From a bacterium (Candidatus Blackallbacteria) CG13_big_fil_rev_8_21_14_2_50_49_14 (lineage in GTDB: Bacteria > Cyanobacteriota > Sericytochromatia > UBA7694): a stretch of DNA of 58,043 bases. Positions within the stretch are counted from its first letter, which is position 1. Each line of letters opens with the position of its first letter. The position numbers and the translations under genes are program-made. The notes under the pieces were generated by a model, which saw only the letters and a list, made by a program, of their open reading frames with translations, was not told where the DNA came from and ran no database searches. This document shows, one piece after another, positions 19,980-25,825 of the stretch. Location of the stretch: NCBI GenBank assembly GCA_002783405.1, contig PFGG01000039.1:1-58043 (forward strand). Reading direction: 5' to 3'.

Positions 19980-20045
19980 GCTGCTTATCACTGGCTTTGT
20001 TCCGTGCTACATTGATCTCAAATTCAGAATCAATGAGGCATGGGA

Positions 20046-21614
20046 ATGGCTAAAAAGACTCCAGAATCTTCAAAACCAAGCAATAGCAGCAATTTAAAAC
20101 CTGCCGCTAAAACCACAGCACGTGCAAGTGCCAAAGCGCCTGTCAAAGCCCCGGCAAAGCCCGCAACGGCTGCGAAGGCAAAAGCACAGGCAAACCCCAC
20201 CCCTCCCCGCACCGAAGCCCCCACCATGAAACCGAGTTTTGAGCAGCATTTTAATGAGGCTGACAAAGCACTGACCCAATGGATGATTGAGCATCCCCGT
20301 GACGTGATCAAATATCGCCAGGAATTCATGCAACAGCTCTTGAAAAAGCGCTGCAGTTACGGCGAAGGGGGCATTTTACCCGTCACCCTCTCCCCCATGT
20401 TTCTCAAGCACGATTCACTGCAATTGATTGCCAATGTCGCAGAAACCCTCGACAAGGTCTTGGACAAAGCGATCGAACTGTATTTTCAGGATGACTTCGT
20501 CAAAAGCTATTTTCCCTATCCCGATATTCCCCTGGAGTGGATCAATTGGGATTACCGCTATAAAAAACCGACAGTTTTAAGCCGCCACGATGCGCTGTAT
20601 GATGGCAAAACCCTCAAATTTATTGAATTCAATACCGACAATCCAGGCGGCAGAGGCTGGTTAGACACCTATGAAGACCTGCTGATTCATTCCCCGCTTT
20701 ACAAGGATTTGATTGCAGAATATGCACAGACCTCTGATCGTCCCATGCTGCATGCCCTCAAGGAGGCACTGCTGAAATGTTACCGCGAATGGGGAGGAAC
20801 CAAAGAAAGACCCCGCGTGGCCCTGGTCTCTTTCAAACAGTTCCTTTCGGGTTCTGACAGCGAAATTGTAAGGGATTATTTGATCGAACATGGCATTGAA
20901 GCCAATTTTGTCGATCCCCGTGAGTTTGAGTACCGCGATGGCAAACTCTACTCGGGCAATGTGCAGTTTGATATCGTCAATATGTGTCTGCGCTTTACCT
21001 TCTTCAAACGCTTTCCCCGTGAAATGAAAGATTTTCTCGATGCCCTGAGAGATGGTGCTGTCTGCTGTGTGAACAGTTTCAAGGCCACCCTGGGCTCACA
21101 AAAAGAAATGCTCTCTTTCCTCAGCAATGAAGAAAACCACCACTACTTTACAACTGAAGAAGCAGCGGCTGTCAAAGCATACATCCCCTGGACCCGCAAA
21201 ATGGATGAAACCATCACCATTTCAAAGGAAGGCCAGGATATCTCACTCTTCAATTATGTCATGAAGCACCGTGAGGAATTGGTGCTCAAACCCACCTGGG
21301 CCGCAGGGGGGTATGAGGTCTATGTCGGCAAATACACCGACCGCGAAAAATGGAGCAATGCGATTGAAAGCGCGATGGGCTGTCCCTGGTGGATTATTCA
21401 GGAAGCCGTTGAAATTCCTGAATACGAATTCCCCGTGATCAAAGACAATAAAGTGGTTCTGGAAAAGAAAAATCTCAATCTGAACCCCTATGTCTTTGAT
21501 GGCAAATACGTGGGTTGCCTGGGGCGGATTTCTGAGTCCAAGGTGATCAACGTGAGTGCTGGGGGAGGGATTATTCCTGTTTTCGCACTTAAAGAAGGCC
21601 AGGAAGGCCGCTGA
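20046..21614 (+). CDS. Circularly permuted ATP-grasp-type ligase-like protein
   Basis: The 522-residue protein begins with about 55 residues of low-complexity Ala/Lys/Pro repeats. A globular part follows that resembles circularly permuted ATP-grasp or glutathionylspermidine-synthase-like proteins. LKFIEFNTDNPGGRGWLDTYEDLL is the substrate/phosphate loop type, REELVLKPTWAAGGYEVYVGK the ATP-binding lysine and glycine loop, and the end has NLNLNPYVFDGKYVGCLGRIS with VNVSAGGGIIPVF. Such enzymes join a carboxylate to an amine via acyl phosphate. GAGG lies seven bases before the ATG at 20046. It shares a one-base overlap with the following dehydrogenase gene, so the two should act in one pathway. 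Confidence 0.6.
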   Translation: MAKKTPESSKPSNSSNLKPAAKTTARASAKAPVKAPAKPATAAKAKAQANPTPPRTEAPTMKPSFEQHFNEADKALTQWMIEHPRDVIKYRQEFMQQLLKKRCSYGEGGILPVTLSPMFLKHDSLQLIANVAETLDKVLDKAIELYFQDDFVKSYFPYPDIPLEWINWDYRYKKPTVLSRHDALYDGKTLKFIEFNTDNPGGRGWLDTYEDLLIHSPLYKDLIAEYAQTSDRPMLHALKEALLKCYREWGGTKERPRVALVSFKQFLSGSDSEIVRDYLIEHGIEANFVDPREFEYRDGKLYSGNVQFDIVNMCLRFTFFKRFPREMKDFLDALRDGAVCCVNSFKATLGSQKEMLSFLSNEENHHYFTTEEAAAVKAYIPWTRKMDETITISKEGQDISLFNYVMKHREELVLKPTWAAGGYEVYVGKYTDREKWSNAIESAMGCPWWIIQEAVEIPEYEFPVIKDNKVVLEKKNLNLNPYVFDGKYVGCLGRISESKVINVSAGGGIIPVFALKEGQEGR

Positions 21615-23062
21615 TGAATGCTGTGCCGATCACGCTTGCCCCTGGAGATGGGATCGGCCCAGAAATAACCCAAGCTGTTCTTCGGGTGCTTGAAGCCGGA
21701 GGGGCAGAAATTTCCCCTGAAATTGTGGAGATCGGCGAAGCTGCCTATTCCAAAACCTGTTTGGATGGAATTTCTGCCCAGGCTTGGGAAAGCATTGAGC
21801 GCACGGGCGTGCTCTTGAAAGGCCCCACCCAGATTCGGGAGGGGAGAGGCTATCTGGCTTCTACCCAGGCGCTTGAAATTCGCCTGGGGCTCTATGCCAG
21901 TTTGCAGCCCTGTATCTCCTATGCCCCCTATATCCCGAGCCAATTTAAAAAAATGGATGTAATCGTCATTCGAGAGAATGAAGAGGAACTCTATGGGGAT
22001 CTTGAGTACCGCCAAACCAAAAATGTCTGCCAGGGCCTGAAACTGATCAGTTTACCCGGTACCTATCAAATCCTACGTTATGCCTTTGATCTCGCTCGCA
22101 GTTGCTCGCGCAAAAAAGTGACGGTCTTAAGCAAAGACAAGGTCATGGAATTTACAGATGGGTATTTTCACAGCTTGCTCGAAGAACTGGCTGCCTCTTA
22201 TCCAGAATTAAAATATGAGCATCAAAGCCTGGATGTGGGCACGGCCTTGCTAACCGATCATCCAGAAAATTTTGACGTGATTGTCATTCCCAGTTTGTAT
22301 GGGGATATTCTCTCGGCCCTGATCACCAAAGTCAGTTTCAGCAAGCCGGGCATGAGTGCCTACGCCGCCCTGGGCAAAAAACACATGCTGTTTGAAGCAG
22401 CGCATGATCCGGCCCCCGCTCTGGCGGGTCAGAATCTAGCCAACCCTTCTGGCATGCTGCTGGCAGCGATCTATCTGCTGATTCATATTCACCAGCATGA
22501 GGCCGCTGAACGGATTCACAATGCCTGGCTGGCCACCTTGGAAGCCGGCATTCATACCCCAGACATTTTCAGAGAGGAACAGAGCCTGCACCAGGTGGGC
22601 ACCCTTGAATTTGCAAATGCGATTATTCCCCATTTGGGCATGCGTCCCCGTCATTTTCAGGCGGTCAATTACCAGCAAAGTGATTCTGATGCTTTTTTTG
22701 CGTTTAAACCCAAGCCCCCTCAAACCGAAATCGGTGAACGCACGCTGATGGGGGTGGATATCTTTCTGGATTATCCTGCCCATAACCCTGAAAAACTGGC
22801 ACACAAACTCAAAAATTTGAATGCAGGGGTTTTGGATTTAGAATTGATCAGCAATCTGGGCGTCTTGGTCTGGCCCGAGTTTATTCCAGAAACGCGTATC
22901 TCTGATCACTGGCATTGTCGCTTTATGCACCAGGAGCCAGGCCTGTCGATCAGCGAAAGAGACATTCTCGATTTATTGACTGAATTGCAGGCCCAGGGAT
23001 TTGATTTTATTAAGACTGAAAATCTGTATGCCTTTGGTGGCAATCCCGCTTTTTCAGCTTAA
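21614..23062 (+). CDS. Divergent isocitrate-dehydrogenase-like protein (long, Thermus/Rickettsia-type)
   Basis: The 482-residue protein matches the isocitrate/isopropylmalate dehydrogenase fold from LAPGDGIGPEI onward. It also has the extra C-terminal domain (LMGVDIFLDY, SNLGVLVWPE, DHWHCRFM, FIKTENLYAFGG) of Thermus- and Rickettsia-type enzymes. Conserved residues R120, E121, N122 and Y127 (RENEEELYG), a lysine near 174, and D231 remain. Residues that normally grip isocitrate and metal differ: the S-N-R loop reads STQALEIRLGLYASLQP, GDILSD reads GDILSA, and the cofactor motif HGxAP is HDPAP. It starts within the stop of the ATP-grasp gene. It may use another beta-hydroxy acid or be inactive. 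Confidence 0.75.
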   Translation: MNAVPITLAPGDGIGPEITQAVLRVLEAGGAEISPEIVEIGEAAYSKTCLDGISAQAWESIERTGVLLKGPTQIREGRGYLASTQALEIRLGLYASLQPCISYAPYIPSQFKKMDVIVIRENEEELYGDLEYRQTKNVCQGLKLISLPGTYQILRYAFDLARSCSRKKVTVLSKDKVMEFTDGYFHSLLEELAASYPELKYEHQSLDVGTALLTDHPENFDVIVIPSLYGDILSALITKVSFSKPGMSAYAALGKKHMLFEAAHDPAPALAGQNLANPSGMLLAAIYLLIHIHQHEAAERIHNAWLATLEAGIHTPDIFREEQSLHQVGTLEFANAIIPHLGMRPRHFQAVNYQQSDSDAFFAFKPKPPQTEIGERTLMGVDIFLDYPAHNPEKLAHKLKNLNAGVLDLELISNLGVLVWPEFIPETRISDHWHCRFMHQEPGLSISERDILDLLTELQAQGFDFIKTENLYAFGGNPAFSA

Positions 23063-24895: not shown

Positions 24896-25792
24896 TTAAC
24901 GGCGAACCAAGCCACGGCCAGATTGTGCCAAAGCTTGAATGACCTTGGAACCCTTTACGATTTCACTCATTTTCACGCCACGGTTGGCACCGCCTGAAGA
25001 ATAGCAACCGCCATTGGTATGAACACCCACGAGGTAGCCATCTTTGTCCAATACGCCTGAACCTGAACTACCGGGCTCAGTATCCAAATCTGCGTATTCC
25101 ATATAGTTGCCTGACTCTCCCACTTTGGGGCCAGACTCGACGGTTTTGGCCTTGCCCTTGGGATGTTGAATAATCGTCAGCAGATGGTTGTTTTCAGGCA
25201 AGACAGGGCGAACAGGGGTCCAGCCGTATTTCAGGCCAGGTTTGCCATCAAGTTTGAGAATGGCGAAATCCAGGCCATTGATATGATCTTCAACCACACC
25301 GGCAATTTTAAAGTGTTCCTGGGGAAGCAATTCAGAAGAACCTGCTGCTTTTTCATAGTTGAAGACAGCAAATTTCTGGGTGATCGAAGCATCCACACAA
25401 TGGCTGGCAGTCAGGAACATGTCTTCGCTGATCAGGGTGCCACTGCAAAATTTACGCGAAGAGCTGTCAGGGTTGCCCATCGCCAAGGCACCTACGGCGG
25501 CTTGGTGAGCTTTCACAAATTCAACGGGTTGGCCCAGGCTGCCATCATAATCATTGACGTTTTGCATATCGTCTTTGCCACAGATACTTTGAATATTGGT
25601 ATCTGCCAAAAAACGGTATTGGCCAGGATTGCGCATTTTTCTCACAAAGTCTGGGTTATCTTTGCTGACAGAAGCAGACATTGCACGTACACCCAGATTG
25701 GCTTGGGCGTTCATTTGGGGCAATGCTTGGGGAACCTGCGAACAGGCAGCGAGCAGACTCAGGAGTGACAAACCGGCAATGATTTTTTTCAT
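24896..25792 (-). CDS. Trypsin-like (S1) serine protease lipoprotein
   Basis: The 298-residue protein has a lipoprotein signal, MKKIIAGLSLLSLLAAC, so it should be anchored to a membrane through the Cys. The catalytic triad of the S1/glutamyl-endopeptidase group is complete: His in FLTASHC (H131), Asp in LDFAILKL (D175) and Ser in TEPGSSGSG (S243), with the Cys pair of SGTLIS/ASHC typical of the fold. The GSSGSG active site is closer to V8-type proteases than to GDSGGP trypsins. A second ATG 15 bases upstream is possible. It has its own promoter and terminator. Confidence 0.85.
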   Translation of the reverse strand: MKKIIAGLSLLSLLAACSQVPQALPQMNAQANLGVRAMSASVSKDNPDFVRKMRNPGQYRFLADTNIQSICGKDDMQNVNDYDGSLGQPVEFVKAHQAAVGALAMGNPDSSSRKFCSGTLISEDMFLTASHCVDASITQKFAVFNYEKAAGSSELLPQEHFKIAGVVEDHINGLDFAILKLDGKPGLKYGWTPVRPVLPENNHLLTIIQHPKGKAKTVESGPKVGESGNYMEYADLDTEPGSSGSGVLDKDGYLVGVHTNGGCYSSGGANRGVKMSEIVKGSKVIQALAQSGRGLVRR

Positions 25793-25825
25793 AGGATTCA
25801 CTTTCATTAAATCTTGATTAAGAAT

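Follow-up and report, generated by a model that had tools for sequence, protein, structure and literature searches.

The window analysed here, a stretch of 58,043 nucleotides from contig C39 of a Candidatus Blackallbacteria assembly (G000; 5.65 Mb, 96% complete), contains the gene of an ATP-grasp ligase that runs into the gene of a diverged isocitrate dehydrogenase, designated IDH-A. This raises the question of what a dehydrogenase with an altered active site does behind a ligase. A preliminary description of the locus had offered two answers: either the pair makes a small amide from a product derived from a beta-hydroxy acid, similar in logic to LysX plus homoisocitrate dehydrogenase, or the dehydrogenase is inactive or regulatory. 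The latter is the better half of that guess. IDH-A probably either serves as a helper subunit without catalytic activity or is a gene copy on its way to loss, rather than forming a new amide-making enzyme.

The gene pair and its occurrence

Both open reading frames are present on the + strand (Table 1). That they share a base had been noted before and was confirmed; the TGATG overlap makes translational coupling of ligase and IDH-A probable. The ligase frame could also start at 20040. Because the orthologues start with MAKK, position 20046 fits as the start.

Table 1. Features of the ligase/IDH-A operon (positions in the window; residues S113 to D311 in E. coli Icd numbering, primes as in the text)
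Feature	Position	Strand	Remarks	Evidence
Circularly permuted ATP-grasp ligase	20046-21614	+	522 aa from MAKK start	Weak Pfam matches, AlphaFold/Foldseek
N-terminal extension of the ligase	20046-20222	+	Lys/Ala/Pro-rich, probably disordered	Read from sequence
TGATG stop/start overlap	21612-21616	+	Ligase stop and IDH-A start share the A	Sequence
IDH-A, diverged long-type isocitrate dehydrogenase paralogue	21614-23062	+	482 aa	NF006673, PF00180, PF18324, 2d1c
Eroded own-site substrate loop	21857-21907	+	A82, T84, E88, Q98 replace S113, N115, R119, R129	Alignments
Donated half-site	22133-22141	+	K174 kept (K230'), K176 replaces N232'	Alignment
Donated aspartate	22232-22234	+	D283' retained as D207; lent across the dimer	Alignment
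Metal site	22304-22318	+	D231 kept (D307), A235 replaces metal ligand D311	Alignment
Cofactor motif	22403-22408	+	H264-D265 replaces H-G of HGSAP	Alignment
C-terminal domain PF18324	22739-23056	+	Normal evolutionary rate	Profile match; branch ratio 1.14

The preliminary description had proposed a search for the pair in other genomes. Four genera belonging to one family carry it (G000, G002, G003 and G004), and the junctions in the latter three either overlap or leave a gap of at most about 15 nt. No other neighbour is conserved among the four, so the pairing is more than chance. In G005 ligase and dehydrogenase each lie at the end of a contig and may be neighbours, but no overlap of the contigs was found. 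A scan of genome contigs for the dehydrogenase returned only two relatives, one from Pyrinomonadaceae with no ligase alongside on the same contig and one from an alphaproteobacterial genome with no ligase match anywhere.

The active site of IDH-A

IDH-A scored 548.4 bits against NF006673 (cut-off 509) and matched PF00180 (Iso_dh) and the bacterial C-terminal domain PF18324; its best PDB match, by sequence and by fold, was 2d1c of Thermus thermophilus. It is homologous over its full length, including the C-terminal domain, to the long-type NADP-dependent isocitrate dehydrogenases of Thermus and Rickettsia. Unlike these, it falls under the cut-off of TIGR02924 and has lost five substrate and metal residues as well as the glycine of HGSAP. 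Should IDH-A be no more than a decaying copy, its score above a curated isocitrate dehydrogenase equivalog cut-off calls for caution with automatic annotation.

In E. coli Icd numbering, with primes for residues donated across the dimer, the substrate residues S113, N115, R119, R129, R153 and Y160 of functional isocitrate dehydrogenases read A, T, E, Q, R and Y in IDH-A. Among the metal ligands D307 and D283' are kept and D311 is A; K230' is retained and G340 is lost. The motifs STQALEIR, LYASLQP, GDILSA and HDPAP align without gaps to S-x-N...R, YANVRP, GDILSD and HGSAP. Thus the substitutions listed in the preliminary description all read and align as it had claimed, and R120-E-N, Y127 and D231, which it had called kept, are invariant in the alignment. 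A shifted register, named there as a possible refutation, does not restore the residues: the S-N-R loop needs no gap, and a shift by one residue regains only S, neither N nor R. For R129 and D311, no residue close by could take over. A compensated frameshift in the loop was likewise rejected, as no other frame, read by eye, yields the motif. With its isocitrate and metal site destroyed in the alignment, a homodimer of IDH-A should very probably be unable to oxidise isocitrate.

IDH-A might instead oxidise another beta-hydroxy acid and the ATP-grasp enzyme turn the product into an amide. The operon pairing and the retention of R153, Y160, K230', D283' and D307 would suit such an enzyme, as would the signature KDK[IV]MEF with its N232' to K exchange, which is common to all four ligase-linked copies and older than the erosion. 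Yet R119, R129 and D311 bind the malate moiety shared by all substrates of the beta-decarboxylating dehydrogenase family, and E, Q and A in their places should abolish this binding. None of the related enzymes examined lacks any of the three, be it a distant LeuB, a short or a long isocitrate dehydrogenase. Because even LeuB keeps them, a dehydrogenase with a new substrate is unlikely. In addition, the dinucleotide motif HGSAP is broken, and a close relative, G001, has retained the ligase though it lacks the dehydrogenase. The lost residues and G001 together speak against the amide-making pair of the preliminary description.

A paralogue with the complementary half-site

The search for a canonical enzyme elsewhere in the genome, also suggested earlier, yielded a full-length monomeric NADP-isocitrate dehydrogenase on C32 (TIGR00178, 1245 bits) and a long-type paralogue, B. 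IDH-A is therefore not the sole isocitrate dehydrogenase; had it been, this would have counted against the preliminary description. Citrate synthases are present as well. B (C14:42726-44129; L034, L081:12721-14211) is the only Iso_dh gene besides IDH-A that was found in G000.

B retains all eight residues of its own site (S, N, R, R, R, Y, D, D) but carries R at K230' and H at N232'. IDH-A shows the converse, i.e. the damage lies in its own site, while the donated K230' and D283' are kept. The two paralogues therefore carry complementary half-sites, with N232' altered in both (K in IDH-A, H in B). A similar division is seen in the heteromeric NAD-isocitrate dehydrogenases of eukaryotes (yeast IDH1/IDH2, human IDH3 alpha/beta/gamma), where one paralogue retains its own site, the other the half-site that it donates; a dead pseudo-allosteric site has a precedent there as well (PMC5241874, PMC7752914). 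On the other hand, IDH-A and B, the subunits of a putative heterodimer, belong to a different branch of isocitrate dehydrogenases, have an extra C-terminal domain and are encoded at separate loci.

We tentatively favour, at somewhat less than even probability, the view that IDH-A is a pseudo-subunit that partners B. IDH-A would have arisen as an active duplicate of a long-type isocitrate dehydrogenase and then have become the second gene of the operon behind the ligase. In G000 its own isocitrate and metal site is destroyed, while the fold, the C-terminal domain and the half-site lent to a partner (K230', D283') are kept. An IDH-A:B heterodimer would have one workable site, composed of the eight residues of B and K' and D' of IDH-A, and a second, dead site, an arrangement known from yeast IDH1/IDH2 and human IDH3 alpha-beta. 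The monomeric enzyme, judging by its presence, would carry the bulk of the TCA flux, and the ligase would probably work alone as a peptide or amide ligase.

Several observations weaken this proposal. The complementarity was recognised post hoc and is modest; as such a pattern has a chance of about 0.2 for IDH-A and 0.05-0.2 for B, it is suggestive only. Moreover, the two genes lie on different contigs, and the donated N232' of IDH-A is Lys. If the heterodimer is real it would be a bacterial parallel to the regulated NAD-isocitrate dehydrogenase of eukaryotes. The wider claim would be that a heteromeric isocitrate dehydrogenase arose independently in a bacterium from two long-type paralogues, in convergence with yeast IDH1/IDH2 and human IDH3, that one of its sites is live and the other dead, and that the pseudo-subunit is translated together with the ATP-grasp ligase. 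We regard it as rather doubtful.

B is alone among the aligned copies in having Arg (TRDHIMK) where the catalytic Lys is expected. Downstream of IDH-A the window encodes a trypsin-like peptidase (24896-25807), a 63% identical homologue of which (L037:6029-6937) is located directly beside B in G002. Since a LeuB-like gene was found neither in G000, where only IDH-A and B turned up, nor in G001, where the search returned nothing, the data suggest that both are leucine auxotrophs.

Graded erosion and evolutionary rates

The four ligase-linked dehydrogenases form one clade in the tree (support 100/99). The copies of G003 and G004 retain every active-site residue other than N232', and that of G002 is half-eroded with S113 and D311 lost. 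The copy of G000 is the most eroded, and no other branch in the long-type clade reaches its length of 1.08. G001, which belongs to the same genus and is the nearest relative, has no Iso_dh gene in its genome, hence neither IDH-A nor B, and no dehydrogenase remnant was found behind its ligase, which lies on a 208 kb contig. With IDH-A essentially intact in G003 and G004, a partnership with B would be lineage-specific, and G001 evidently dispenses with both; the two facts count against the pseudo-subunit. If the heterodimer is real, on the other hand, the birth of a pseudo-subunit could be reconstructed stepwise, from intact (G003, G004) through half-eroded (G002) and most eroded (G000) to lost (G001).

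The same series also suits redundant decay. The family would have gained a monomeric NADP-isocitrate dehydrogenase, which may have left the older long-type copies without purpose; IDH-A would be carried along by its coupling to a useful ligase and be heading for a loss like that in G001. We rate this only a little below the pseudo-subunit. All five family members have the monomeric enzyme (incomplete in the fragmented assemblies of G003 and G004), and the graded erosion, the long branch of IDH-A and the clean absence in G001 are consistent with decay. Yet the 482 codons of IDH-A are free of frameshifts and stops, and the pair persists across four genera though all other neighbours have changed. 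Should decay be all there is, the locus is a clear record of one type of isocitrate dehydrogenase displaced by another.

The evolutionary rates also speak against simple decay. The catalytic core of IDH-A is accelerated 2.4-2.9 fold and the C-terminal domain only 1.14 fold (ratio of branch lengths; p = 0.007 for the contrast). Because the acceleration is confined to the core and the C-terminal domain evolves at a normal pace, IDH-A is not drifting uniformly; neither a disrupted frame nor uniform relaxation marks it as a pseudogene. In G002 the large domain of IDH-A is relaxed, while the dimer-forming small domain is not (p = 0.013). This pattern, the intact frame and the conserved operon favour a pseudo-subunit that partners B, yet the contrast of large and small domain was not significant for IDH-A of G000 (p = 0.29).

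The ATP-grasp ligase

The ligase scored below the Pfam gathering cut-offs for the CP_ATPgrasp families (22.8 vs 32 and 19.2 vs 23.1 bits). Weak matches recurred among the 14 ligase homologues, all of which matched CP_ATPgrasp_2 and 13 CP_ATPgrasp_1. An AlphaFold model (pLDDT 86) gave the GspS-like protein 3n6x and eukaryotic glutathione synthetases as best Foldseek matches, with E of about 1e-15 and TM of about 0.60-0.67 by query length. The model thus assigns the ligase to the circularly permuted ATP-grasp enzymes, among them YgiC/YjfC, with a fold of the GspS/glutathione synthetase type. In contrast to distant relatives with KPND[ED]YGG, its glycine-rich loop reads KPTWAAGG. Within the family the ligases are 78-88% identical, and the motifs R-x-D, E-x-N and K...KP..GG are conserved, which indicates that the enzyme is probably active. 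LysX and RimK share only the superfamily with it: they are not circularly permuted, profile searches gave no LysX match, and RimK reached a TM of only 0.27 in Foldseek. The analogy to LysX plus homoisocitrate dehydrogenase could thus not be upheld.

Low-complexity tails similar to the histone-H1-like N-terminus of the ligase (20046-20222) occur in G001, G002, G003 and G005 and are absent in G006.

The overlap of the genes and their conserved pairing could also mean that IDH-A assists the ligase itself, structurally or as a regulator, and not B. We think this quite improbable, since the ligase is still 88% identical in G001, where IDH-A is gone, and other relatives of the ligase stand alone or beside GCS2/YbdK ligases. 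It is likely that the ligase acts as a peptide or amide ligase independently of the dehydrogenase.

Outside this order, eight genomes of the class have a homologue of the ligase that adjoins a GCS2 gene of the YbdK type; in a Pyrinomonadaceae genome such a gene lies near the homologue. The ATP-grasp proteins of these pairs are homologous to the ligase at about 26-30% identity. The locus studied here differs in that it has no GCS2 neighbour, an isocitrate dehydrogenase copy occupies the adjacent place, and the family, including G000, has an ordinary GshB. The latter weakens a role of the ligase as glutathione synthetase in G000. In 11 other genomes of the class a search gave no strong GshB match, so their pair of YbdK and ATP-grasp enzymes may make a gamma-glutamyl peptide. 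A literature search on YbdK/ATP-grasp pairs and the Thermus-type isocitrate dehydrogenase gave no useful match. Loci that combine an ATP-grasp gene with a carboxylate-amine ligase of the YbdK/PRK13515 type were L052, L053, L054, L055, L056, L057, L058, L059 and L122. Three genomes of the family share a conserved gene beside gshB (L112:6289-7410, L113:7687-8811 and L117:2471-3613); it encodes about 375 aa, and the copy in G000 has no NCBIfam match.
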